Of a stretch of DNA of 32,504 nt, positions 15,134-32,096 are shown piece by piece. The position numbers and the translations under genes are program-made. Within the stretch, counting starts at the first letter, position 1, and every line of letters begins with the position of its first letter. Source of the DNA: Spirochaetota bacterium (GTDB lineage Bacteria > Spirochaetota > UBA12135 > COTS27 > JAFLEE01); the NCBI GenBank assembly GCA_017302015.1, contig JAFLEE010000057.1, forward strand, positions 1-32,504, read 5' to 3'. A model generated the notes under the pieces. It searched no databases. It had not been told where the DNA came from and worked only from the letters and a program-made list of their open reading frames with translations.

Positions 15134-17281
15134 ATGGCCAACCGCTCCACGCCGTTTTTCATGACCCACCACGCCCCCCCGGGGGCTTGGTCGAGCCTGA
15201 CGTTTGGGGTGCCGGGGCAGGGGGTGAGCCTGAACCAGGAAGTCAATGAAGTCGACATTTCGGCGGATCTCCTGGTCGCCGTGAGCCGGGGCCCGGGAAG
15301 GGTGAGGGCCCTGCCCTTCGTCACTGGTGCCTCGGCCCTCGACCCCGAAACCCTCCAACGGGAAGCGGCTGCGGGCACACTTGATGCCCGGCCCAATGCC
15401 CCCCGGTCCCGATGGTCCTTCGCACCGGAGGATGAAATAACCCGCGCCCTGGGACCCTGTTCGGACCAATACACTTGGGAAGACCTTTCCCTCACCGTGC
15501 GGCAACGGCCCTGCGAGTTTCCCGATTTTGAAAAAACAGGGGTCCAGAAAGGGGCCGCCGGGCATTCGCTCCTGCCCGCGGTGTGGTTGGAATTATCCAT
15601 CGATAATCGCGCCTCGAAGGACCCGGCGATGGGGTTCATCGGCCTTTCGATTTTTAAGAACCGCCTACGGACCTTGGACCTCACCCACCCGGGAAAATTA
15701 TGCGGGGTCGCCTATTCGGACCGGTGGGCCCTCGCGGCGGTGCCGGTGCCCGGGGCGGTGGGGACGATGCGGGACGGGGCCATCGCCCGCCACATCGAGC
15801 AAATGCGGCCGGCCATGGAACATAAGGGCCGGGAGGGGGGCGTGTGGTGCCGGGTGCCGCCGGGTGCCCGGCGCACCCTCACCTGCGTGCTGGCGTTCTA
15901 CCGGGGCGGCGTCGCCACCCAAGGAGTGAAGGGCGTCTATGCCTATTCGGCCCATTGGCCCGAGGTCGAGGCCGTCGCCCTCGCCGCCTTGTCGGCCACA
16001 CGGGCGGTGAAAGCCGAGGCCGAGGCCCATGACCGCATGATCGCCGCGGCGGGAGGCACCGGGGAACAAAAGGCCGTCTTTGCCCAAGCCGTGCGTGCCT
16101 ATGCCGCCAATACCCAAATGACCCTGGCGGGGAAGAAAGTTCTCTATACCGTACTCGAGGGGATGTACTGCTGGCGAAATACCATGGACCTCTGCGCCGA
16201 CCATTTGCCCTTTGAACTCTGGCGCAGCCCCTGGCTGGTGCGGAACCTGTTGGATCAATTTTTGGATCGCTACACCACCCGCGACCGCCTGCGCTTCCCG
16301 GGGCAAAAAGCCGCCCGCCCCGGGGGCCTCTCGTTCACCCACGATATGGGCAGTTACACCACCTACACCCCCCCGGGTACCTCTGGATACGAGCAGCCCG
16401 GCATCACGGGCTGCTACAGTTACATGACCCAGGAAGAACTTCTTAACGGCGCGTTCCTCTTGGGCGCCTACGCCCTCACCGGGGGCGACAAAACTTGGTG
16501 GGCGAAGCGCGGCAAGGCCTTGGTTTCGGTCCTGGATTCCATGGAAAATCGAGATCACCCCGTGGCCGCCCAAAGGGACGGCATCATGAAAGGGGAAAGC
16601 CTCTTGGTGGGCGAGTCCGGGGCCGAGATCACCAGTTACGACGCGCTGGACCATAGCCTCATGGCCGCCAGGGGAAACGGCTATCTCGCCGTGAAGACCT
16701 TCGCCGCGGCCCTGGTGCTCCAGGCCGCCTTCGCCCGCCACGGGAAAAAAACCGAAGCGGCCCGGGCGGGGGCCTATGCCGCCCGGTGCGCGGCGACCCT
16801 GGAGAAAGCCTTCGACGAATCGAAAGCCATCCTCCCCGCCAACCTCTATTCCCAATCCGAGAGCCGGGTGGCCGCCGCCGTCGAGGGCCTGGCGGTGCCC
16901 CTATTCCTCGGCCTGAAAAAGGCCATCACCGCCCACCCGGGCCTAGTGGAAAAACTGAAACGCCATCTCCATACCTGCCTGGTCCCCGGCCAATGCATCG
17001 ACGCCGCCACCGGAGGATTGCGCCTGTCCAGCACCTCCCCCAATACCTGGCCCAGCAAGGGCATCCTGGTCCTTTATGTCATGGAGAATCTTTTTTCCAT
17101 GGACCTGAAGGGGCGCTACGGATCCCTCCTGCCCGAACTCGTCGCCTGGTGCCAAGTCAGCGCCAAGGACGTGACCGTCAGCGACCAGATCCTATCCGAC
17201 ACCCGCAAGACCAAAGGCGCCCACTATTACCCCCGGATCGTCACCGCGGCCCTTTGGCTCAAACCCACCCTGAAAAACTAG
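15134..17281 (+). CDS. Glycoside hydrolase family 52 beta-xylosidase
   Basis: GH52 enzymes are retaining beta-xylosidases that trim xylo-oligosaccharides. The 715-residue length is that of the family. Recognisable blocks in order: FFMTHHAPPGAWSSLTFGVPG (8-28), AFYRGG (254-259), VLEGMYCWRNTMDL (340-353) where Glu342 aligns with the known nucleophile, SFTHDMG (400-406), GITGCYSYMTQEEL (423-436), and SGAEITSYDALDHSL (495-509), which holds the acid/base Asp (503 or 506). There is no signal peptide, so it acts in the cytoplasm on imported oligomers. GGAGGA precedes ATG 15134. CCGTCGAT occurs twice in the ~60 nt upstream and may be an operator. No xylanase or sugar transporter is nearby. Confidence 0.9.
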   Translation: MANRSTPFFMTHHAPPGAWSSLTFGVPGQGVSLNQEVNEVDISADLLVAVSRGPGRVRALPFVTGASALDPETLQREAAAGTLDARPNAPRSRWSFAPEDEITRALGPCSDQYTWEDLSLTVRQRPCEFPDFEKTGVQKGAAGHSLLPAVWLELSIDNRASKDPAMGFIGLSIFKNRLRTLDLTHPGKLCGVAYSDRWALAAVPVPGAVGTMRDGAIARHIEQMRPAMEHKGREGGVWCRVPPGARRTLTCVLAFYRGGVATQGVKGVYAYSAHWPEVEAVALAALSATRAVKAEAEAHDRMIAAAGGTGEQKAVFAQAVRAYAANTQMTLAGKKVLYTVLEGMYCWRNTMDLCADHLPFELWRSPWLVRNLLDQFLDRYTTRDRLRFPGQKAARPGGLSFTHDMGSYTTYTPPGTSGYEQPGITGCYSYMTQEELLNGAFLLGAYALTGGDKTWWAKRGKALVSVLDSMENRDHPVAAQRDGIMKGESLLVGESGAEITSYDALDHSLMAARGNGYLAVKTFAAALVLQAAFARHGKKTEAARAGAYAARCAATLEKAFDESKAILPANLYSQSESRVAAAVEGLAVPLFLGLKKAITAHPGLVEKLKRHLHTCLVPGQCIDAATGGLRLSSTSPNTWPSKGILVLYVMENLFSMDLKGRYGSLLPELVAWCQVSAKDVTVSDQILSDTRKTKGAHYYPRIVTAALWLKPTLKN

Positions 17282-21897: not shown

Positions 21898-23196
21898 ATG
21901 GACCGCCGAGTGGTCATCACCGGAATGTCGACGATCAACCCCCTCTCCGACGACCTCGAGGACTATTACGCCAAGCTCATCGCCGGGAAATCCGGGGTTC
22001 GGGCGTGGAAATCCATCGACCTCTCCAAGGTGGAGAACAAGGTCGGGGGCGACCTCGGCGACTATGATTGGGCCGCCGCCCTCGGGAAGCTTCAAGACGT
22101 GCTGGGGGACGATTTCAAGCCCGTGCGCAAACTCTTCAAATTCGGCACGTTCTCCAGCCGCCTCTCCATGCTCACCGCGCTGGGAGCCTGGAAAGACGCC
22201 GGGCTCTTCGCCCCCGGGGCGCGCAAGGGCGAAGATCCGTACCGCACCATGTCGGTGGTGGCGGGGCACAACCTAAACAGCAATTACATCGCCAAGTGCT
22301 GGGAGCAATTCCAGATCGAGCCCGAGCACATCCCGCCCCTGGCCTCCGTCGAGGCCATCGACAATAACGTCCCCGCCCTCATCACCGAACTCTTCAAGCT
22401 CCACGGGCCGGCCTACACCGTCGGCGGCGCCTGCGCCAGCGGCAATCTGGCCCTGCGCGACGCCGTGCGCGATATCCGCATCGGCGAGATCGACCGGGCC
22501 GTCGTCTGCGGCGCGGTCTTCGACGTCTCCCCCACCGACATCATGGCCTCGAGCATCATCAACTCGGTGGTGGTGAAGCCCGAACTCCAGGCCGACCCCT
22601 CCCAGGCCAGCCGCCCCTTCGACGTGAAGCGCAACGGCTTCGTCTATAGCCACGGCTCGGCCACTCTCATCGTCGAGTCCCTCGAGAGCGCCCAGGCCCG
22701 CGGCGCCCGCATCTGGGCCGAGGTGCTCGGCGTGAAGGCCAGCGCCAACGGGTGCCACCTGCCCATGCCCGGGGCCGCCCACCAGGCCTGGGCCATGCGC
22801 GGCGCCATCCAGCAGGCCGGCATCGATCCCAAGGAGATCGGCTACGCCAATTGCCACGCCACGGGCACCCCCGCCGGCGACATCGAGGAACTCCAGGCCA
22901 TGCGCGAGGTCTTCGGCAAGCACCTCTACGACATGAAGCTCAACGCGCCGAAGTCGATGCTCGGCCACACCTGCTGGGCCAGCCCCCTGGTCGAGACGAT
23001 CGGGGGCATCCTCCAGCTCCGCCACGGGCGGCTGCACCCGACCATCAACATCTCCAAGCTCGCTCCCGAGGTCGACGTCGATGTCTGCGCCAACCGGGCC
23101 CAAGACACGAAGGCCGACACCATGATCAAGAACAGCTTCGGCTTCGGCGGCCTCAATTGCTGCTCCGTCATCCGCACGTGGAAGGAGAAATCGTGA
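21898..23196 (+). CDS. Beta-ketoacyl synthase of the HMGS cassette
   Basis: This 432-residue thiolase-fold condensing enzyme follows AGGAGG with 5-nt spacing. The triad is intact: Cys179 in GGACASGN, His320 in NCHATGTPAGD and His357 in KSMLGHTCW. The GFGG loop near the C-terminus is also present. It is diverged from housekeeping FabF around the nucleophile (GGACASGN rather than the usual TACAS/T) and has an unusual region between residues 45 and 150. HMGS cassettes in polyketide clusters usually carry a ketosynthase whose Cys is replaced by Ser and which only decarboxylates malonyl-ACP. Here Cys is kept, so real condensation is possible. It overlaps the next gene by 4 nt (GTGA), so they are co-translated. 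Confidence 0.88.
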   Translation: MDRRVVITGMSTINPLSDDLEDYYAKLIAGKSGVRAWKSIDLSKVENKVGGDLGDYDWAAALGKLQDVLGDDFKPVRKLFKFGTFSSRLSMLTALGAWKDAGLFAPGARKGEDPYRTMSVVAGHNLNSNYIAKCWEQFQIEPEHIPPLASVEAIDNNVPALITELFKLHGPAYTVGGACASGNLALRDAVRDIRIGEIDRAVVCGAVFDVSPTDIMASSIINSVVVKPELQADPSQASRPFDVKRNGFVYSHGSATLIVESLESAQARGARIWAEVLGVKASANGCHLPMPGAAHQAWAMRGAIQQAGIDPKEIGYANCHATGTPAGDIEELQAMREVFGKHLYDMKLNAPKSMLGHTCWASPLVETIGGILQLRHGRLHPTINISKLAPEVDVDVCANRAQDTKADTMIKNSFGFGGLNCCSVIRTWKEKS

Positions 23197-23933
23197 ACGC
23201 GTTCATCACCGGCGGCAGCCGCGGCATCGGCCGCGCCATCGTGCTCAAATACATCCAAGAGGGTTGGGGCGTCGCCTTCACCTACGCCGGCAACAAGGCC
23301 ATGGCCGAAGAGACCCTGAGCCTCGCCCGGGCCCAGAAGCCCGGCTGCGAGATCCGGGCCTACGCCATGGAACTCAAGAACGCCGACGACGTGGAGAAGG
23401 TCTGCGACCAGGCCATCCGCGATTTCAAGACGGTCACCACCGTGGTCAATAGCGCCGCGACCCTGCGCAACGGCGCGGCGGTCATGATGAGCACCGAAGA
23501 CTGGAACGAGGTGATCGCCGTCGACCTCTCGGGACCGTTCTACGTCGACCGCTCCTTCCTCATGCACATGATCGCCAACCGCAAGGGGCGCCTCATCCAC
23601 CTCTCGAGCCTGGCCGCCGGGGGCTCCTCGGGCCAGGTCAATTACGCCGCCGCCAAGGCCGGCCTCGACGGCCTCAGCCAGACCCTGGCCAAGGAGTACG
23701 GCGCCAAGGGCATCACCTCCAACGTGATCACCGTGGGCTACGTGCCCACCGATATGACGAAAGACCACATGTCGAGCCAGCTCCAGGCCTTCTGGCTCGA
23801 GCATTGCCCCGCCCACCGCGTCGGCACCCCCGAGGAGATCGCCGGCCTCGCCTATTACCTGAGCACCGATCCGGCCGCCTTCATCTCCGGCGAGAATATC
23901 CGCGTCGTCGCCGGTCTCACCTACGCCCCCTGA
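23193..23933 (+). CDS. SDR 3-oxoacyl reductase (FabG-like)
   Basis: This 246-residue short-chain dehydrogenase starts at GTG 23193, overlapping the ketosynthase stop, with AAGGAG 6-11 nt upstream. The cofactor loop TGGSRGIG (6-13) favours NADP(H). 'VVNSAAT' replaces the usual NNAG. The catalytic set is Ser138/139, Tyr151 and Lys155 in 'NYAAAKAG', the normal YxxxK spacing. In context it should reduce the beta-keto group formed by a neighbouring ketosynthase to a beta-hydroxy group on the carrier protein. Such SDRs are hard to separate from other alcohol dehydrogenases by sequence; the neighbours make the ketoreductase role the best reading. Confidence 0.88.
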   Translation: MNAFITGGSRGIGRAIVLKYIQEGWGVAFTYAGNKAMAEETLSLARAQKPGCEIRAYAMELKNADDVEKVCDQAIRDFKTVTTVVNSAATLRNGAAVMMSTEDWNEVIAVDLSGPFYVDRSFLMHMIANRKGRLIHLSSLAAGGSSGQVNYAAAKAGLDGLSQTLAKEYGAKGITSNVITVGYVPTDMTKDHMSSQLQAFWLEHCPAHRVGTPEEIAGLAYYLSTDPAAFISGENIRVVAGLTYAP

Positions 23934-24000
23934 CCCAGATGACGAACCCCGACTTCCCCGTGCGGCCCCCGGCCGCGAAACGCCTTCCCCAGGAGACACC

Positions 24001-25230
24001 ATGAACCGCGTCGGCATCGAGAAGATCAACCTCTACGGCACCTCCATGTGCCTCGACCTCGGCGACCTCGCCGTGGCCCGCGGCAAAGACCCCCAGAAGG
24101 TCGCCCACGATTACCTCATCACCACCCGCTCGCTCAACCCCGTGTGGGAAGACGCCGTGACCATGGGGGCCAACGCCGCCTTGGGCATGCTCACCGAGCA
24201 GGACAAGAAGGACATCGGCATGCTCATCGTGGGCACCGAGGGCTCCGTGGACTTCGGCAAGCCCATCAGCACCAATATCCATTCCCTCATCGGCCTCGGC
24301 CCCCACGTGCGCAATTACGAGACCAAGTTCGCCTGCTATTCCGGCTGCGCGGCCCTCGACACCGCCGTCAACTGGGTGGCCAGCGGCCTCAATAAGGGCA
24401 AGAAGGCCCTCGTCATCGCCACCGATTTCTCGCGCAAGCACTTCAATCTGCTCGAGGAGTTCGTCATGGGAGGCGTCGGCGCGGCCTACCTCGTGAGCGA
24501 GACCCCGAAGATCCTCGAGTTCGAGACCGCCAAGAAGGGCACCTGGACGACCGACATCTACGACACCTTCCGCCCCACGGCCGTCGACGAGGTGGGGAAC
24601 AACGAGGTCAGCCTCTTCAGCTACATGGACGCGGTGACGGGCTCCTACAACGAGTACCTGGCCCAGAACACCGATACGGTGGATTTCAACACCTATTTCA
24701 GTTATTTCGTCTACCACACCCCGTTCCCGGGGATCACCTACCAGGCGCACCGCACCCTCTGCCGCGACCACGCCCCGAAGAAGAAGCCCGAATTGCAGGA
24801 CGATTTCGACCGCCGCGTCACCCCCGCCCTGCGCTTCGCCAAACGCGTGGGCTCGTGCTATGGGGCCTCCAATTTCGTCGGGCTCGCTTCGGTGCTCATG
24901 AGCAAGCCCGACATCAAGGAGGGGACGCGCATCGGCTTCTTCTCCTACGGTTCCGGCGCCCTGGGCGAGTTCTATTCGGGCAAGGTCCTCCCCGGCGCCC
25001 ACGAGATCGTGAAGGCCCAGAAGATCGACGAGGCCCTCGACGCCCGACGCCGCTGCACCGTGGCCGAGTACGAAGCCACGGAGAACCTGCGGGAAACCTA
25101 CATCGAGAACCCCAATTTCGTCCCCGATACCTCGCTCCTGGGCGGCTGGTACCAGAAACATTACGCCGGAAGCGGCCTCGTGGTGCTGAAGGAAGTGAAG
25201 GACTTCTACCGCACCTACGTCCGGGCCTGA
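24001..25230 (+). CDS. HMG-CoA synthase homologue of the beta-branching type
   Basis: Family members of this type (PksG, CurD) add an acetyl group to the beta-keto carbon of an ACP-bound chain, giving a 3-hydroxy-3-methylglutaryl-like intermediate. The protein has 409 residues, the usual length. The catalytic triad is visible: Glu80 in VGTEGSVD, Cys112 in KFACYSGCAAL and His239 in VYHTPFPG. The order GIEKINLY..., then 'SSLIGLGPHVRNYETKFACYSG'-like and 'SYGSGALGEFYSG' blocks, is as in PksG. AGGAG lies 5 nt before the ATG. It is followed directly by the ECH1 and ECH2 partners, which argues against a mevalonate-pathway role; no reductase or mevalonate kinase is nearby. Confidence 0.9.
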   Translation: MNRVGIEKINLYGTSMCLDLGDLAVARGKDPQKVAHDYLITTRSLNPVWEDAVTMGANAALGMLTEQDKKDIGMLIVGTEGSVDFGKPISTNIHSLIGLGPHVRNYETKFACYSGCAALDTAVNWVASGLNKGKKALVIATDFSRKHFNLLEEFVMGGVGAAYLVSETPKILEFETAKKGTWTTDIYDTFRPTAVDEVGNNEVSLFSYMDAVTGSYNEYLAQNTDTVDFNTYFSYFVYHTPFPGITYQAHRTLCRDHAPKKKPELQDDFDRRVTPALRFAKRVGSCYGASNFVGLASVLMSKPDIKEGTRIGFFSYGSGALGEFYSGKVLPGAHEIVKAQKIDEALDARRRCTVAEYEATENLRETYIENPNFVPDTSLLGGWYQKHYAGSGLVVLKEVKDFYRTYVRA

Positions 25231-25262
25231 GGCCCCTCCCCGGGGAAACCCGACCGGAAAGC

Positions 25263-26096
25263 ATGCAAGAGAACAGCGTTAGCTACTTAGCCGACGGCGG
25301 CCTGGGCCTCGTCACCCTCGCCGACCCCGACGGGGGAAACCGCCTCTCGGAAGCCCGCCTGACCAGCCTCAAAAAAGCGCTGGAAGCGGGCCTCCAAGAC
25401 GAATCCGTGCGGGTCCTGCTCCTGCGGGCCGGCGGCGGGCCGGGCAAGCCCTGGTGCCTCGGCATGGACCTCGACCTGCTCCAGGGCAGCCTCGCGGGGG
25501 CCTCGGGCGGCGAGCGGGAAGGCGGGGTGTCCGCTTATGCCGATCTCCTCTACTTCATCAGCACCTGCGCCAAGCCCGTCTTGGCCCTCATTGGCGGCCC
25601 GGTGATGGCCGGCGGCGTCGGCCTCGCCGCCGCTTGCGACGGGGTCTACGCCGTCGCGGGGGCCAGCTTCGAGCTCACCGAGGTCTTCTACGGCCTCATC
25701 CCGGCCAACGTGATCCCGTTCCTCCTAGGGCGGCGCATCGGCATGCAGAAGATCAAGCACCTGGTGATGAGCGCGCGCAAATGCACGGCGGAGGAAGCGC
25801 GCGCCCTGGGCCTCGTCGACGAACTCCTGCCCGCCGACGATCCCGACGGCGCGCTCAAGAAGGCCCTGCGCCCCTATTTCCGGGCCGCCCCCTCGGCCCA
25901 GAAGGCCACGAAGGAATTCCTGGAGGCCCTCGACGGCGAGACGATGGAGGAGGGCCTCGTGCGCGCCCAGCGAACGATCCTGGGCCTCATGGCCTCCGAG
26001 CCCGTCGGCCACGCCCTCGGCGCCCTGAAAGCCGGCGAGACGCCCCGTTGGTTCTCCCGCCCCCAACCCTCCCATAAACTCTTCTTCCCCGACTAA
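25263..26096 (+). CDS. ECH1-type enoyl-CoA hydratase homologue (dehydratase of beta-branching)
   Basis: This 277-residue crotonase-fold protein is of the PksH/CurE kind, which dehydrates the HMG-like intermediate to a glutaconyl-like thioester. Oxyanion-hole segments are CLGMDLD (65-71) and GGPVMAGGVGLAAACD (111-126). The segment FELTEVFYGLIPANVIPFLLGRRIG (136-160) is the strongest marker: the Glu before VFYGLIPA (140) is the catalytic acid/base, and 'GLIPA..PFL' is typical of ECH1. The first Glu of ordinary hydratases is replaced. A modest GGAAAG precedes ATG 25263. The C-terminal tail ('HKLFFPD') is not recognised. Confidence 0.87.
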   Translation: MQENSVSYLADGGLGLVTLADPDGGNRLSEARLTSLKKALEAGLQDESVRVLLLRAGGGPGKPWCLGMDLDLLQGSLAGASGGEREGGVSAYADLLYFISTCAKPVLALIGGPVMAGGVGLAAACDGVYAVAGASFELTEVFYGLIPANVIPFLLGRRIGMQKIKHLVMSARKCTAEEARALGLVDELLPADDPDGALKKALRPYFRAAPSAQKATKEFLEALDGETMEEGLVRAQRTILGLMASEPVGHALGALKAGETPRWFSRPQPSHKLFFPD

Positions 26097-26112
26097 CGCC
26101 GAGGTGGACCCC

Positions 26113-26862
26113 ATGACCAAACCCATCGACTGGGACCTGGACGACAAGAAGATCGCCACCCTGCGCATGCAGGATACCGAGAACAAGAACGTCTTCTCCC
26201 ACGCCTTCGTCGAGGCCTTCCTCGCCACCTTCGACGAGATCGAGGAGGCCGAACCGCGCGTGCTCGTCATCCGCGGCCTCGACGACGTCTTCTCCGGCGG
26301 CGCCGACCGCGAGAGCCTCATGGAACTCGCGGCGGGGAAGATCGTGGTGCGCGACCTCGTGCTCTCGGAGCGCCTCATCCACGCGCGCTTCCCGATCATC
26401 GCCGCGATGGAGGGGCACGCCATGGGCGGCGGCCTCGTCATCGGGCTCTGCTCCGACATCGTGCTGATGGCCAACGAGAGCCGCTACGGCGCGGTCTTCA
26501 TCAACATGGGATTCACCCCGGGCATGGGCACGACGACGTTGCTGCCGCTGCTCGTCGGCCCCTACCTCGCCTCCGAGATGATGATGACCGGCCGCCGCTA
26601 CCGCGGGAAGGAGCTCAAGGGCCTCGGGGTGCACGTCAACGACATCCTCCCCAAGGCCGAGGTGCTCCCCAAGGCCCGCGACCTGGCCCTCCAGATCGCC
26701 GAGAAGAACCCGAAATCCATCGCCCTCCTGAAGGCCGCCCTCAGCACGCCCAAGAAGAAGCTCCTCATCGACGCCCGGGCCCAGGAAGACCTCATGCACC
26801 ACCTGAGCTTCGGCTTCCCCGAGACCAAGGCCATCATCCACGAATTCTACGCGGGCAAATAG
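26113..26862 (+). CDS. ECH2-type enoyl-CoA hydratase homologue (decarboxylase of beta-branching)
   Basis: This 249-residue crotonase-fold protein is of the PksI/CurF-ECH2 kind, which decarboxylates the dehydrated intermediate and leaves a beta-methyl (or exomethylene) branch. Markers are FSGGADRESLM (60-70), 'FPIIAAMEGHAMGGGLVIGLCSDI' (93-116) and FTPGMG (134-139), the last being characteristic of ECH2. Lys76 and a C-terminal His-His pair (~225) are candidates for the residues that bind the leaving carboxylate, by analogy with CurF; I could not align them exactly. AGGTGG sits 5 nt before ATG 26113, which I prefer to the GTG at 26104. Confidence 0.87.
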   Translation: MTKPIDWDLDDKKIATLRMQDTENKNVFSHAFVEAFLATFDEIEEAEPRVLVIRGLDDVFSGGADRESLMELAAGKIVVRDLVLSERLIHARFPIIAAMEGHAMGGGLVIGLCSDIVLMANESRYGAVFINMGFTPGMGTTTLLPLLVGPYLASEMMMTGRRYRGKELKGLGVHVNDILPKAEVLPKARDLALQIAEKNPKSIALLKAALSTPKKKLLIDARAQEDLMHHLSFGFPETKAIIHEFYAGK

Positions 26863-26884
26863 CGCCCCGCCGCCAAGGACGACC

Positions 26885-27709
26885 ATGATCACCATCGATT
26901 TTTCCGGCAAGACCGTGCTCATCACCGGGGGCACCAAGGGCATCGGCCACGCCGCCGCCCGCAATTTCGCCCAGGCCGGCGCCCGCCTCGTGCTCACCTA
27001 CAAATGGGGCAGCGCCGACCTCGACGCGGTGCGCAAGGACTTCATGGCCCTCGGGGCCCCCGAGCCGATCTTCGTCCAGGCCGACGTCTCGGTGGACGAG
27101 GACACCGACAAGGTGATGGGCGAAATCGCCAAGGTGGCCAAGAAAGTCGACGTCTTCATCAGCAACGTGGGCTACGCCGCCACCATGCCCACCCTCGACG
27201 CCTACAAGAAGCGCTCCCTGTTCAAGACCCTGGAGTACTCCACCTGGCCGATGGTGGAGTATACCCGGGCCATCCGGAAGCATTTCGGGTCCTACCCGGC
27301 CAAGGTGGTGGGCATCTCCTCCGACGGCCCCGACCACTATTACCCCGGCTACGACTTCGTGGCGGCCAGCAAGGCCCTCCTCGAATCCCTGGGGAAGTAC
27401 CTCGCCGTGCACCTCCTCAAGGAGGGCAGCCGGGTGAACATCATGCGCTTCGGCACGGTGAAGACCGAGAGCTTCACCGCCATCTTCGGCGAGGAGTTCT
27501 TCAGCCATGTGGTCGAGGCCGGCCTCATCACCGAAGACCTGGTGCTCAAGCCCGCCGATTGCGGCAAGGCCGTCTTCGCCCTCTGCTCGGGCTTCATGGA
27601 CGCCGTCAACGGCCAGGTGCTCAACGTCGATTACGGCCTGCCCTTCTCCGACAACAGCATGAACCGTTTCATGGCGATGAAAGCCAAGGGCGGGCCGTCC
27701 AAGGCTTGA
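26885..27709 (+). CDS. SDR enoyl-ACP reductase-like protein (FabL/FabI type)
   Basis: This 274-residue protein has TGGTKGIG (14-21) for NADP(H), as in FabL rather than the altered FabI loop. The active site reads Tyr156-x6-Lys163 in 'YDFVAASKALLESLGKYLA'. The x6 spacing marks enoyl-ACP reductases (FabI, FabL), whereas ordinary SDRs have YxxxK, as in the other SDR of this cluster. It should therefore reduce an alpha,beta-double bond, either in normal elongation or after beta-branching, giving a saturated methyl branch. AAGGA precedes ATG 26885. It ends the first transcription unit, with a terminator downstream. The C-terminal ~25 residues are an extension beyond the fold. Confidence 0.8.
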   Translation: MITIDFSGKTVLITGGTKGIGHAAARNFAQAGARLVLTYKWGSADLDAVRKDFMALGAPEPIFVQADVSVDEDTDKVMGEIAKVAKKVDVFISNVGYAATMPTLDAYKKRSLFKTLEYSTWPMVEYTRAIRKHFGSYPAKVVGISSDGPDHYYPGYDFVAASKALLESLGKYLAVHLLKEGSRVNIMRFGTVKTESFTAIFGEEFFSHVVEAGLITEDLVLKPADCGKAVFALCSGFMDAVNGQVLNVDYGLPFSDNSMNRFMAMKAKGGPSKA

Positions 27710-27843
27710 TGACGGCCTTCGGCGGGTTTTTTTCCCCGTCCCTCGGAACCGCCCTCGTGCCTCCCCCCGGGTCGCGGCGACCCAGCATTGGGCTCCGGGG
27801 TCTCGGGGACGCGGGACCGCGAGGTGCGCCGTCTCGGCCGCGC

Positions 27844-27869
27844 AGCCGCGAAGGGCGGCTTTGTTTTTT
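27844..27869 (+). terminator. Intrinsic terminator after the enoyl-reductase gene
   Basis: The stem AGCCGC (27844-27849) / GCGGCT (27855-27860) has loop GAAGG and is followed by TTGTTTTTT. It separates the ketosynthase-to-reductase operon from the ACP operon. A T7 run at 27727-27733 just after the reductase gene may add a weaker stop. Confidence 0.8.
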
Positions 27870-27933
27870 CCCCCGACCCCGTCGCGCCATTTTCCGCCCT
27901 CCTGGATCCCCAAAAGCGGGGAATTCCCGGGGG

Positions 27934-27962
27934 ATGAATAAAATCCCGAAATAGTTTATACT
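27934..27962 (+). promoter_or_regulatory. Promoter candidate for the ACP operon
   Basis: TATACT (27957-27962) with ATGAAT (27934-27939) at 17-nt spacing lies in a locally AT-rich stretch after the terminator. The predicted leader is about 30 nt and holds GAGGAG (27987-27992), 7 nt before the ACP start. Confidence 0.45.
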
Positions 27963-27999
27963 TGTCGCTTCCACAGAAACCCATCCGAGGAGCCCGGGC

Positions 28000-28248
28000 A
28001 TGACCAAGCAGGAAATCGTCGACGTCATCAAGAAGAACATCGCCGACAATCTCGACGATATCGACGTGAAAGACATCGACCCCACCAAGTCCATGAAGGA
28101 CTACGGCGCCAATAGCCTCGACATCATCGAAGTCGTTTCCTGCTCCATGCGCGACCTCGACATCCGCATCCCCCGCTCCGAACTGGCCGACATCGGCAAT
28201 ATCGACCAGCTCGCCGACAAATTCCTCGAGAATATCGGCAAGAAATAA
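28000..28248 (+). CDS. Acyl carrier protein of the HMGS cassette
   Basis: This acidic 82-residue ACP carries Ser39 in DYGANSLDIIEVV as the phosphopantetheine attachment site. Housekeeping AcpP has GADSLD; the GANS form is common in carrier proteins that work with HMG-synthase homologues as acetyl donors. That, and its place beside the cassette, supports a dedicated role. It has a strong GAGGAG site and its own promoter, in line with the large amounts of ACP needed. A stable hairpin follows the stop. No phosphopantetheinyl transferase is in the window, so an unlinked one must activate it. Confidence 0.93.
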   Translation: MTKQEIVDVIKKNIADNLDDIDVKDIDPTKSMKDYGANSLDIIEVVSCSMRDLDIRIPRSELADIGNIDQLADKFLENIGKK

Positions 28249-28265
28249 ATCCTCCCGCGGCGACT

Positions 28266-28285
28266 CCGGCGGCCCGCGCCGCCGG
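28266..28285 (+). promoter_or_regulatory. Intercistronic hairpin after acp
   Basis: A perfect 8-bp GC stem CCGGCGGC / GCCGCCGG with a 4-nt loop stands between acp and the oxoamine synthase gene, with no U-tract. It could stabilise an acp-only transcript 3' end and so raise ACP over the downstream enzymes. Confidence 0.5.
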
Positions 28286-28308
28286 GGCTCCCGCCCCCCG
28301 GTGACCCC

Positions 28309-29601
28309 ATGGCCGATTCCAAAGCGACGAATTACAGTCTCGCAGATTTCCACTTCAACGACAGCAAGGACGTGCTGGCCGCCCCCGCCGATTTCGAGGC
28401 GTGGATGGCCCACCCGGACGTGAAGCAGGCCTTCGCCTTCTTCTTCCAGCAATTCCTCGCGGCGCCCAAGGCCAACACCGAGATCCTCTCCGGCGTCGAC
28501 GGCAAGCGCCGGCGCATCGTCAACCTGACCTCCTACAATTATCTGGGTCTCGCCACCCACCCCGAAGTGCTCCAGGCCGTGAAAGACGCCGTCGACCAGT
28601 ACGGCCTCTCCGCCTCCGGCGCGCCGCTCGTTTCGGGCACCACCGACCTCCACGTGAAGTTCGCCCGCATGCTCGCCGAGTTCAAGCAGAAAGAAGACTG
28701 CCTCCTCTTCTCCTCCGGCTACGGCGGGAACGTGGGCGCCATCCAGGGCATCATGCGCAAGGGAGACGTCGTCATCATGGACGAGAAGGGCCACAAATCC
28801 CTCGTCGACGGCGTGACCCTCTCCGGCGCGCGCCTGGTCACCTTCGCCCACAACGACATGAACGACCTCGAGGCCAAGCTCGAGGCCCATAAGGGCAAGC
28901 GCCGCCTCATCGTCGTCGAGGGCGTCTACTCCATGGACGGCGACCTCGTGAAACTCCCCGAAGTCGCCGCCCTCTCCGAGAAGCACGGCGCCCCCATCTT
29001 CCTCGACGAGGCCCACTCGTCGCTCATGTTCGGCGCCGGCGGCCGCGGCGTGGGCGAGCATTTCGGCATCGAGCACAAGGTCGGCATCAGCTACGGCACC
29101 CTCTCCAAGAGCTTCGGCGGCGTGGGCGGCTTCATCTGCGGCAACGCGGGCCTCCTGCGCTACATGCGCGGCTACGCCAGCGCCTGGAACTTCTCCTGCG
29201 CCCCGAGCCCCGCCGTCGTCGGCGGCCTCATCAAGGCCCTCGAGATCGCCACCCGCGACTCCAGCTTGCGCGACAAGCTGTGGGCCAACACGAAGTACTT
29301 CAAGGATCGGCTGACCACCATGGGCCTCAATATCGGCCATTCCGAGAGCCAGGTGATCCCCATCATCGTCGGCAATTCCGGCGAACTGCTCTTCAAGATG
29401 GCCGGCGAGATGCAGCTCGCGGGGCTCTTCCTGCAGCCCGTCGACTACCCCGCCGTGCCCGCCCACGCCCGCCGCTACCGCATCTCCATGTCGTCCCAAC
29501 TCACCAAGGAAGACCTCGACATGGCCCTCAACATCATCGAGGACGTGGTGGCCAAGGGCCTCAAGAAGTCGGGCATCGATTACATGTCGATCAAGCCGTG
29601 A
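28309..29601 (+). CDS. Alpha-oxoamine synthase (PLP-dependent, AONS/SPT-like)
   Basis: This 430-residue fold-type I PLP enzyme condenses an acyl thioester with an amino acid, losing CO2, to give an alpha-aminoketone. Lys267 in GTLSKSFGGVGGF forms the internal aldimine. DEAHSS (233-238) holds the Asp under the pyridine ring and the stacking His region. 'SYNYLGLATHP' (75-85) and 'CLLFSSGYGGNVGAI' (131-145) are typical of oxoamine synthases linked to carrier proteins and of serine palmitoyltransferases; biotin-pathway BioF is less likely, since no bio genes are present. There is no clear ribosome site. The stop overlaps the dehydratase start. The ~65-residue N-terminal extension may dock the ACP. 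The amino acid used cannot be told. Confidence 0.88.
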   Translation: MADSKATNYSLADFHFNDSKDVLAAPADFEAWMAHPDVKQAFAFFFQQFLAAPKANTEILSGVDGKRRRIVNLTSYNYLGLATHPEVLQAVKDAVDQYGLSASGAPLVSGTTDLHVKFARMLAEFKQKEDCLLFSSGYGGNVGAIQGIMRKGDVVIMDEKGHKSLVDGVTLSGARLVTFAHNDMNDLEAKLEAHKGKRRLIVVEGVYSMDGDLVKLPEVAALSEKHGAPIFLDEAHSSLMFGAGGRGVGEHFGIEHKVGISYGTLSKSFGGVGGFICGNAGLLRYMRGYASAWNFSCAPSPAVVGGLIKALEIATRDSSLRDKLWANTKYFKDRLTTMGLNIGHSESQVIPIIVGNSGELLFKMAGEMQLAGLFLQPVDYPAVPAHARRYRISMSSQLTKEDLDMALNIIEDVVAKGLKKSGIDYMSIKP

Positions 29602-30140
29602 TGACCGCGGACGAGGCCGAATCCCTCCTCAAGTCCTTCCGTAAAAAGCCGCTCTTCGACGAGGGCGCCTTGCCGGTGCGCTGGCGCTACGGCGCCCGGG
29701 AAATCGAGCAACTCATCCCCCACCGCCCTCCCATGCGCATGGTCGACACCCTGCGCGGCTACGATCCCGAGGCCGGGCTCATCGCGGGCGGCCGCTTCCT
29801 CGACCCCGCCGATCCCGTCTTTTCGGGGCATTTCCCCGGTTTCCCCGTCTATCCCGGTAACCTGACGGTGGAGAGCATCGGGCAGCTCGGCCTGTGCATG
29901 TTCTATTTCGCCGCCTCCGGGAAGACCGCGATCGACGCCGCGGCCAAGCCCGCCCAGGCCCGCGCCACCCGCATCCGCGGCGCGCTCTTCATCGAGCCGC
30001 TCCTGCCCGGGGAAGAAGTCGTCCTCCTGGCCAAGAAGCTCACCCTCGACCCGTTCGGCGCCTCGGTCATCGGCCAAGCCATCGTGCGCGGCAAGGTCGC
30101 CGTGGTGTGCATCGGCGAAGTGATCCTGTTGGAGGGATGA
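29601..30140 (+). CDS. FabZ-like 3-hydroxyacyl-ACP dehydratase
   Basis: This 179-residue hotdog-fold protein starts at ATG 29601, sharing one base with the previous stop (TGATG). 'LIPHRPPMRMVD' (38-49) and 'SGHFPGFPVYPGNLTVESIGQLG' (75-97) reproduce the FabZ pattern; His77 and Glu91 are the catalytic pair. The 30-residue N-terminal extension and the 'YPGNLTVES' wording (usually PGVLxxEA) set it apart from housekeeping FabZ. It should dehydrate 3-hydroxyacyl-ACP made by the ketoreductase. Coupled translation with the oxoamine synthase ties dehydration to the chain-release enzyme. Confidence 0.88.
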   Translation: MTADEAESLLKSFRKKPLFDEGALPVRWRYGAREIEQLIPHRPPMRMVDTLRGYDPEAGLIAGGRFLDPADPVFSGHFPGFPVYPGNLTVESIGQLGLCMFYFAASGKTAIDAAAKPAQARATRIRGALFIEPLLPGEEVVLLAKKLTLDPFGASVIGQAIVRGKVAVVCIGEVILLEG

Positions 30141-30148
30141 CCCGGCCC

Positions 30149-30177
30149 TTGACTTGTTCCCAATTTGGGAATAGACT
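30149..30177 (+). promoter_or_regulatory. higBA promoter with palindromic operator in the spacer
   Basis: TTGACT (30149-30154), exactly 17 nt, and TAGACT (30172-30177) form a good promoter. The spacer holds a perfect palindrome, TTCCCAA-T-TTGGGAA (30157-30171), ending at the -10 box. This is where an antitoxin repressor would block RNA polymerase. The start codon lies 5 nt after the -10 box, so the transcript should be leaderless. Confidence 0.75.
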
Positions 30178-30182
30178 TTCTT

Positions 30183-30482
30183 ATGCGGGTGATCGCCCTC
30201 AAGACGCTCCGGAGCTTCTGGCTCGAGGCCGGCCACTCCGATGCCGAGCAGGCCCTGCGCGCTTGGCACCATGAAGCCAGGGAAGCCGAATGGAGGAATC
30301 CGCGCGATATCAAGGTCCGTTACCCGACCGCGAGCATCCTGCCAGGGAACCGGGTCGTCTTCAACATCAAAGGGAACAAGTACCGGCTCGTCGTGGCGAT
30401 CAAATACGATTTCAACCTCGTGCTCATCCGCTTCGTCGGCACCCATGCCCAATACGATCAAGTGAACGCAGGGGAGATTTAA
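30183..30482 (+). CDS. higB: HigB-type mRNA interferase toxin
   Basis: This 99-residue basic protein of the HigB (RelE-superfamily) toxin type cuts translated mRNA on the ribosome. The C-terminal half is the family core: 'GNRVVFNIKGNKYRLVVAIKYDFNLVLIRFVGTHAQYDQVNA', where 'FNIKGNKYRL', 'R-F-GTH-xYD' and the final Asp/Asn stretch are diagnostic. The toxin comes first and the antitoxin second, 2 nt apart, the order typical of higBA. No ribosome site lies upstream; ATG 30183 follows the -10 box by 5 nt. The pair sits between the dehydratase and the convergent FabF, interrupting the lipid cluster. Confidence 0.9.
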   Translation: MRVIALKTLRSFWLEAGHSDAEQALRAWHHEAREAEWRNPRDIKVRYPTASILPGNRVVFNIKGNKYRLVVAIKYDFNLVLIRFVGTHAQYDQVNAGEI

Positions 30483-30484
30483 CG

Positions 30485-30829
30485 ATGAAACCCATCAAAT
30501 CCGAATCCGATTATCATTCGACCCTGGCCAGGATCGAATCCCTTTGGAACGCCAAGCCCAATACCCCCCGGGGGGATGAACTCGAGATCCTCGGGATCCT
30601 GGTGGAGGAATACGAGCGCCGCAAGCACCCGGTGCTCCCGCCGACTCCGATCGAAGCGCTCAAATTCCGGATGGAGCAACTGAACCTAAAGAAATCGGAT
30701 ATCGCGCCCTACCTCGGCGGAAGGAATCGTGCCACGGAAGTGCTCCAAGGGACCCGTCCCTTGACCGTGAGAATGATCCGCGAGATCCACAAGCACCTTA
30801 AGATCCCCGCGGAAGCGTTGATCGGCTGA
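30485..30829 (+). CDS. higA: HigA-type antitoxin, HTH repressor
   Basis: This 114-residue antitoxin neutralises HigB and represses the operon. The N-terminal half (to ~50) is acidic and helical; residues about 66-96, 'LNLKKSDIAPYLGGRNRATEVLQGTRPL', are a Cro/CI-type helix-turn-helix of the kind found in this longer HigA branch. GGGGAG lies 8 nt before ATG 30485, so unlike the toxin it has a proper ribosome site and would be translated more strongly, as balance requires. Its dimer probably binds the palindrome at 30157-30171. Confidence 0.9.
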   Translation: MKPIKSESDYHSTLARIESLWNAKPNTPRGDELEILGILVEEYERRKHPVLPPTPIEALKFRMEQLNLKKSDIAPYLGGRNRATEVLQGTRPLTVRMIREIHKHLKIPAEALIG

Positions 30830-30845
30830 GCGCTCGCGCCGGTAC

Positions 30846-32096
30846 CTACCGGAAACGGCTGAGCACCACGCACGCGTTGTGCCCGCCGAAGCCGAACGCG
30901 TTGGAGAGGACGTGGTCGACGCCGGAGGCGTCGGTGCGCTCCTTGATGACGTGGAGGTCGATGGCGGGGTCCTGGTTCTCGACGTTCACCGAGGGATGGA
31001 TGACGCCGCGCTCGAAGCACATGAGGTCGGCGATGGCCTCCACCGCGCTGGTGCCGCCGATGAGGTGGCCGGTCATGGATTTCGTGGAGTGGACGGGCAC
31101 GCGGGAGGCGTAGGCGCCCAGGGCGTGGTGGATGGCCAGGCTCTCGATCTTGTCGCCGGCGGGGGTCGAGGTGCCGTGGCAATTGATGAGGCCCACCTGC
31201 TCGGCGGTGATGCCGGCCATGCGCAGGGAGTCGGTCATGGCCCGCGCCGCGCCGAGGCCCTCGGGATGGGGGGACACGAGATTATAGGCGTCGGAGGTGA
31301 AGCCGAAGCCGGTGAGTTCGCTGTAGATCTTGGCCCCGCGCTTCTTGGCGTGCTCCATTTCCTCGAGGCAGAGGACGCCGGCGCCCTCGCCCATGACGAA
31401 GCCATCGCGGTCGCGGTCGAAGGGGCGGCTGGCGTGCAGGGGATCGTCGTTGCGCTGGGAGAGGGCCCCCATGATCCCGAAGCAGGCCATGCTGGGCATG
31501 GTGAGCACCGATTCGCTGCCGCCGGCGAAGATCGCCTCGGCCATGCCCATGCGGATGAGGGAGGCCGCGAGGCCGAGGGCGTGGTTGGAGGAGGCGCAGG
31601 CGGAGTTCACCGAAAAGGACGGCCCCTGGAGGTTTCGCTCGATGGAGAGCACCGCCGAGGCGGTATTGGGGATGACGTTCGAGACGTAGAAGGGGCTGAT
31701 GAAATTGAGCCCCTTCTCGTTGATCTGGGTGATCTGGCCGTAATGGGTATCGAGCCCCCCTTCGCCGCTGGCGATGATCGCGCCGTAGCGGGTGGGGTCG
31801 GCGTCGATCTCGAGGCCGCTATCGGCGATGGCCTGCATGCCGGCGCAGGCGCCCAGGACGACGAAGCGGTCCATGCGGTCGAGGAGTTTCTTCTGGCGGA
31901 AGGGGGCCTGGTAGCCCGCGGGAAGGGTGACCGTCGCACCGATCTGGACGTGGAAATTTTCGAGGAGGGGATGGTCGAGGCGGCGCACCCCGGAGTGGCC
32001 CTGCTCGAGGGAATCCCAGAAATCGGCGACGTTCGTGCCGATGGGGCACACGACGCCGAGGCCGGTGATCACGACGCGCTTTTCCGTTCGACTCAT
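30846..32096 (-). CDS. fabF: 3-oxoacyl-ACP synthase II (FabF-like)
   Basis: This 416-residue elongating ketosynthase has Cys167 in NSACASSNH, His307 in NCHGTSTPAGD and His344 in KSMTGHLIGG, with GFGGHNA near the end. It is close to housekeeping FabF in length and motifs and distinct from the ketosynthase at 21898. It condenses malonyl-ACP with acyl-ACP. It is transcribed toward the cluster, with only 16 bp between its stop and that of higA. It may be the cell's general FabF or may provide normal elongation for this pathway; no fabD, fabG or acpP lies next to it. An AGAGG-like site precedes ATG 32096. Confidence 0.9.
   Translation of the reverse strand: MSRTEKRVVITGLGVVCPIGTNVADFWDSLEQGHSGVRRLDHPLLENFHVQIGATVTLPAGYQAPFRQKKLLDRMDRFVVLGACAGMQAIADSGLEIDADPTRYGAIIASGEGGLDTHYGQITQINEKGLNFISPFYVSNVIPNTASAVLSIERNLQGPSFSVNSACASSNHALGLAASLIRMGMAEAIFAGGSESVLTMPSMACFGIMGALSQRNDDPLHASRPFDRDRDGFVMGEGAGVLCLEEMEHAKKRGAKIYSELTGFGFTSDAYNLVSPHPEGLGAARAMTDSLRMAGITAEQVGLINCHGTSTPAGDKIESLAIHHALGAYASRVPVHSTKSMTGHLIGGTSAVEAIADLMCFERGVIHPSVNVENQDPAIDLHVIKERTDASGVDHVLSNAFGFGGHNACVVLSRFR

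Follow-up and report, generated by a model that had tools for sequence, protein, structure and literature searches.

Beta-branching by 3-hydroxy-3-methylglutaryl (HMG)-acyl carrier protein (ACP) synthase, HMGS, has so far been described as an accessory function of assembly lines for polyketides, with a chemistry known from the cassettes of polyketide synthases (PKSs) (PMC10006238). The present study concerns a stand-alone gene cluster in a stretch of 32,504 nucleotides, here called the window, which covers bases 1-32504 of contig G000:C119 (35,723 bp) of a Spirochaetota bacterium. The host is a metagenome-assembled genome (MAG), a 5.43 Mb draft that is 93% complete. The cluster codes for homologues of the HMGS, the two enoyl-CoA hydratase-like proteins ECH1 and ECH2, the donor-type ACP and the ketosynthase (KS) of the PksF-PksG-PksH-PksI-AcpK, CurB-CurC-CurD-CurE-CurF and VirC/D/E cassettes, and the chemistry is likely to be the same. 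The trans-acyltransferase (trans-AT) and curacin cassettes have a ketosynthase without the active cysteine (KS0) and a modular PKS, whereas neither of these defining features is present in the cluster. Unlike the PKS cassettes, it combines a ketoreductase (KR), an enoyl reductase (ER), a dehydratase (DH) and an alpha-oxoamine synthase (AONS) in one place, and its HMGS and KS fall into clades that are sister to those of the cassettes.

Three other described systems share parts of this arrangement. PfSgaA/PfSgaB of Pseudomonas fluorescens MYb115 likewise couples a dedicated chain builder to release by an alpha-oxoamine synthase resembling serine palmitoyltransferase (SPT) (PMC12134224); however, PfSgaA is an iterative type I PKS for which no beta-branching genes are mentioned, whereas the present cluster consists of discrete enzymes only. 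The Caulobacter ceramide pathway (AasR, AcpR, Spt, CerR and CerS, the bacterial ceramide synthase or bCerS) has in common with it an ACP beside an SPT-like enzyme and a CerS-type N-acyltransferase family. There, AcpR receives a preformed fatty acid from AasR, and in that place the present cluster has a set for acyl building and branching; the Caulobacter-type Spt belongs to a clade distinct from that of the cluster AONS, and two Alphaproteobacteria have both types. The myxobacterial Aib pathway also proceeds by HMG formation, dehydration, decarboxylation and reduction to a branched acyl unit for lipids (PMC9131029), but it is CoA-based, uses MvaS and the AibA/B decarboxylase, and is without a dedicated ACP or oxoamine synthase. 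No description of a cluster like the present one was found in a search of the open-access literature.

On balance it is probable that the locus specifies a PKS-independent type II beta-branching acyl synthase, whose chain is released in an SPT-like reaction as a methyl-branched 3-keto sphingoid base that is probably N-acylated. If this is true, beta-branching would be shown outside PKSs and a new class of branched sphingolipid-like lipids would exist in bacteria not known as producers. The cluster would also be a compact model of discrete enzymes in which to study the choice of cycle by a branching cassette, and it would bear on the origin of the PKS cassettes. The preliminary description of this DNA had listed ten genes, and all ten are present with intact catalytic residues and with Pfam/NCBIfam domains for each. 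That list had missed a HigB/HigA-like pair, and its last member, a FabF, is probably not a core gene. The features are as follows.

21898..23196, + strand: KS1, FabF-fold ketosynthase, with Cys179, His320, Lys352 and His357 intact
23193..23933, + strand: KR, FabG-type 3-oxoacyl-ACP reductase
24001..25230, + strand: HMGS, beta-branching-type HMG-ACP synthase, with E80, C112 and H239
25263..26096, + strand: ECH1, crotonase fold, putative HMG-ACP dehydratase
26104..26862, + strand: ECH2, crotonase fold, PksI/CurF-type decarboxylase by its match to PRK07110 over the cut-off
26885..27709, + strand: ER, enoyl reductase of the SDR type, FabL/FabI-like, with Y-x6-K
28000..28248, + strand: ACP, donor-type carrier protein by its nearest solved relative CurB, phosphopantetheine site Ser39
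28309..29601, + strand: AONS, alpha-oxoamine synthase dependent on pyridoxal phosphate (PLP), Lys267, beside SPT in the tree
29601..30140, + strand: DH, FabZ/FabA-like hydroxyacyl-ACP dehydratase, with His77 and Glu91
30165-30829: HigB toxin gene (PF09907, E 2.5e-31) with a HigA-like open reading frame (ORF), between DH and FabF2
30846..32096, - strand: FabF2, convergent, an ordinary FabF by domain and tree

The HMGS residues E80, C112 and H239 are each conserved in at least 95% of 42 sequences. The closest solved relatives are CurD and PksG, which are matched over the whole length, whereas the match to MvaS ends at about residue 360-370; the C-terminal part fits CurD/PksG and not MvaS. A tree was computed from the stand-alone HMGSs together with seven from trans-AT plasmid clusters, CurD, PksG and MvaS. 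The stand-alone enzymes form a single clade (98/95) that is sister to the PKS HMGSs (100/99), and MvaS is set apart (100/100). As judged from these comparisons the enzyme belongs to the beta-branching (CurD/PksG) side, and a mevalonate-type HMGS was ruled out by tree placement and the C-terminal match. It is extremely improbable that the locus is a gene set for mevalonate formation or degradation, built around HMGS, with an oxoamine synthase beside it by chance: the protein does match the bacterial HMG-CoA synthase model, below its cut-off, but the tree, the families of the ACP and ECH2 and the conserved synteny argue otherwise, and neither HMG-CoA reductase nor thiolase is present in the cluster. 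The preliminary description had named a grouping of the HMGS with mevalonate enzymes, and of the ECH proteins with fatty acid degradation, as an outcome that would count against it; the tree gave no such grouping and ECH2 passes the PksI-type model. Other spirochaetes (L024, L025 and L027) have a KR-HMGS pair without ECH1/ECH2, and this HMGS is basal in the stand-alone clade.

ECH2 scores 259 bits against the PksI-type model PRK07110 (cut-off 215), its nearest solved relatives are PksI (2e-42) and CurF, and the histidine of the PksI motif MMHE is invariant in 29/29 sequences; by these measures it is of the PksI type. The PksI lysine (chain 99) was considered as a conserved catalytic residue and rejected, for it varies among cluster ECH2s and trans-AT controls alike. 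The ECH1 gene lies between HMGS and ECH2 in the loci most similar to the present one (clade A, below), and conserved positions of its product recur in four ECH1 proteins of trans-AT systems. The ER gene adjoins ECH2 and its product keeps Y156-x6-K163; H77 and E91 of the DH and Ser39 of the ACP are conserved across relatives. The best model for the ACP is PRK07117, below cut-off, and its nearest solved relative is the curacin donor ACP CurB (1e-10; next ACP 2e-4), which points to a donor-type carrier.

The best model for KS1 is PRK07103, again below cut-off, and the tree gives the KS0 of trans-AT cassettes as the sister group of KS1 (95/91). The ketosynthase of beta-branching cassettes has been described as decarboxylating (NaPDoS2, PMC9582728). 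In KS1 the Cys/His/Lys/His set is invariant in 31/31 sequences, whereas five KS0 controls from trans-AT cassettes have S/S/S/S/M at the position of the active-site cysteine, and this contradicts a role of KS1 as a KS0-like decarboxylase only. Since FabF relatives have the cysteine, KS0 without it shows the derived condition, and the stand-alone form may resemble the ancestor of the PKS cassette KS.

The order KS1-KR-HMGS-ECH1-ECH2-ER-ACP-AONS-DH is syntenic in several families of Spirochaetota, in Aminicenantes, FCPU426 and Firestonebacteria and in a Chlamydiae MAG, with HMGS homologues of 59-75% identity (clade A). At least a dozen relatives of the host spirochaete carry the gene set. In a second group (clade B; HMGS identity about 40%), found in Bacteroidota, Alphaproteobacteria and Myxococcota, the order is DH-KS1-KR-HMGS-ECH1, followed by ECH2/ER, ACP, a second ER and usually AONS. 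Many loci also hold a FabD-type acyltransferase, an Sfp-type phosphopantetheinyl transferase and a GNAT protein of ~375 residues. The gene set stands much above chance, because numerous genomes from several phyla have the genes in this same order. Variants were also seen: in one spirochaete HMGS and ECH1 are separated by some 4 kb in which several additional ORFs of 210-302 aa lie (L023:3005-7246), and in a Spirochaetaceae MAG three ORFs of 177, 269 and 548 aa follow the ACP at the place expected for AONS (L042:5400-8563).

These loci had been found by way of HMGS, and AONS was therefore searched separately in the same genomes, as the preliminary description had proposed. Among 393 Spirochaetota genomes, with HMGS of clade A and with AONS hits counted above 590 bits (next best 430), 12 had both genes, one had only the one, one had only the other and 379 had neither (Fisher 7e-21, a value inflated by shared ancestry). 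The two mismatching genomes are drafts that are 73% and 81% complete, and the carriers span seven families. In the single-contig genome G202 the GNAT, HMGS and AONS genes lie within 10 kb, so the gene set is no binning artefact. The type I PKS marker PF16197, scored over its cut-off, was sought in 19 cassette carriers; it was present in only 2, the host genome and one other, and thus a PKS is no general requirement of the cassette. This co-occurrence in the 12 genomes, with 17/19 carriers lacking a type I PKS domain, agrees with the conserved synteny and the cassette homology in supporting the earlier idea of a discrete aminoketone line, for which the product itself is a prediction.

The best solved relative of AONS is Sphingobacterium SPT (3a2b), CqsA scoring far lower, and the PLP lysine K267 is conserved (alignment of three rows). 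In the tree 16 clade A and 8 clade B sequences, the latter mostly from Bacteroidota and Alphaproteobacteria, form one clade (SH-aLRT 99), which adjoins the SPTs, canonical alphaproteobacterial SPTs included, and lies apart from KBL and ALAS-type enzymes; a myxococcal AONS (L081) is placed elsewhere on a long branch. Besides the cluster AONS, two Alphaproteobacteria have an SPT-like gene of the canonical kind close to a ceramide-type locus. Family scores were tried as a guide to the amino acid substrate and rejected, the AONS, KBL, BioF and SPT models being too alike in score. Serine is our guess, because the clade sits beside SPT.

A second link to sphingolipids is given by the GNAT family. 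It was found in 13/14 genomes carrying HMGS and/or AONS and in 84/379 other Spirochaetota (Fisher 7e-8, kinship ignored), and its gene adjoins the cluster in six loci (L041, L054, L059, L062, L063 and L068) and in Bacteroidota loci. In two Alphaproteobacteria the family lies within a Caulobacter-like phosphosphingolipid locus; in one such locus (L130) genes for a diacylglycerol kinase, a CDP-alcohol transferase, LptF/LptG, a metallophosphoesterase, two NTP transferases and an ABC flippase stand beside it. The phosphosphingolipid region of Caulobacter has the same gene set, in which CC_1154 codes for CerS, the ceramide synthase (PMC11324152; PMC11087976). The family may accordingly be called bCerS-like by synteny with that published region; no solved structure was found for it. 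Clusters of Bacteroidota have an SDR gene directly after AONS and a PAP2 protein, some also a fatty acid hydroxylase and a desaturase. AasR acyl-ACP synthetase is not in the present cluster, the search for it having been confined to the cluster.

From the genes we infer all of the reactions, the branch position, the amino acid and the product. KS1, perhaps with FabF2, would condense malonyl-ACP units supplied by FabD, and KR, DH and ER would process the ordinary elongation cycles. In at least one cycle HMGS would add an acetyl nucleophile, probably from acetyl carried on the donor-type ACP, to the beta-keto group. ECH1 would then dehydrate the HMG intermediate, ECH2 would decarboxylate it and the ER encoded next to ECH2 would saturate it, so that a methyl branch remains. 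AONS would join the branched acyl thioester to an amino acid, giving a branched 3-keto sphingoid base, and a bCerS-type GNAT, whose gene is part of the cluster in some relatives and lies apart from it in the host genome, could N-acylate it to a ceramide-like lipid. It is possible, though we doubt it, that branching is confined to the starter: acetoacetyl-ACP would be converted by way of HMG-ACP and 3-methylcrotonyl-ACP to isovaleryl-ACP, which would be elongated to an ordinary iso-branched sphingoid base independently of leucine. Such a route needs just KS, HMGS, ECH1, ECH2, ER and ACP, all of them in the cluster; it fits all the sequence data and has a precedent in the Aib route with MvaS/LiuC/AibABC (PMC9131029). 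However, the enzymes here are of the PksG/PksI type and not MvaS/AibAB, and KR and DH in the cluster, with the two ER paralogues of clade B, fit full elongation and branching cycles. Of these paralogues one lies beside ECH2 and one after the ACP; resolution within clade B is weak in the ER tree. An extension of the branching-cycle pathway, which we consider unlikely, is that beta-methylation occurs in every second cycle, so that acetate is built into multi-branched, isoprenoid-like (phytanyl-like) sphingoid bases with no need of isoprenoid enzymes; the lineage would then have kept the intact-KS form, the possible ancestor of the PKS cassettes.

Several observations weigh against a branched sphingoid base made independently of a PKS. 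ECH1 has no dedicated family model and PksH is only a middling match among solved structures. Acceptor ACPs of beta-branching carry a characteristic tryptophan, and the sole ACP of the cluster is donor-like and without it. The Fisher values take no account of the shared ancestry of the genomes. The one GNAT homologue of the host genome (C78:26879-28069) is unlinked to the cluster, has 38% identity to the clustered copy of L041 and belongs to a broad family. AONS is missing from the clade B cassettes of Yersinia similis and of the Serratia fonticola plasmid pSF001. Finally, the host genome has an AT-less type I PKS fragment, KS-DH-KR-ACP-KS, which runs off a contig end (L036:4300-11028, on G000:C151).

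The last of these points invites the reading that the cassette acts in trans on that AT-less PKS and that AONS releases the PKS product. We regard this as very unlikely: C151 is unlinked and its fragment shows a single ACP and no tandem, KS1 keeps its cysteine unlike the KS0 of true PKS cassettes, HMGS lies outside the trans-AT clade, and most carriers are, as said, without a type I PKS domain. A ParA-like gene precedes the fragment. Only one AT domain was found in the host genome, a FabD-like match (G000:C90:6952-7851) with two TGA stops inside, perhaps from a frameshift or assembly error. A megasynthase directly outside the window was the other outcome that the preliminary description had named as counting against it. 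The absence of a megasynthase from the cluster, noted there, extends to its surroundings: no PKS or nonribosomal peptide synthetase was found among the scanned genes of the 21 kb upstream, and downstream of the window the contig runs on into an open frame read as proB and then a membrane protein gene. In an Enterobacter ludwigii from a gull, a conjugative IncFII plasmid (L150, NZ_CP134637.1) carries a PKS cluster that includes an HMGS cassette.

The unlinked bCerS-like gene and the AONS-less enterobacterial relatives, in which the acyl module serves other ends, would also suit release of a small aminoketone or natural product, such as a signal or alkaloid precursor, in place of a sphingolipid-like membrane lipid. 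Signals of the CAI-1 type and products off-loaded from PKSs are among the other compounds that AONS enzymes make. A small product is nevertheless improbable in our view, as the AONS clade lies beside SPT and not with KBL or ALAS-type enzymes, CqsA is the poorer match, and the bCerS-like family co-occurs with the cluster and is adjacent to it in several phyla. The stand-alone HMGS cassettes of Yersinia similis and pSF001 (L075/L151) include FabD; that of Yersinia similis also includes a 165-aa protein of no recognised type and has phage-tail-like genes nearby.

KS1 to DH lie on one strand with mostly short gaps. The gap of 290 bases between ER and ACP holds a terminator-like site, so ACP-AONS-DH could form a second transcription unit. 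FabF2-type genes are frequent neighbours in clade A loci. In the tree, FabF2 groups with a FabF paralogue of its own genome (C105) and not with the FabFs of other clusters, and for this reason it is probably not a core gene; its candidacy as one found no support. The genes 5' of the cluster are unrelated and code for a kinase, a PurL-like protein, a phosphohexomutase, NeuB, a radical SAM protein, a GH52 enzyme and a lactonase. The gene of glycosyl hydrolase family 52, an uncommon family, lies at 15134-17281 (E 1.8e-84) and adjoins a FecR-domain gene.

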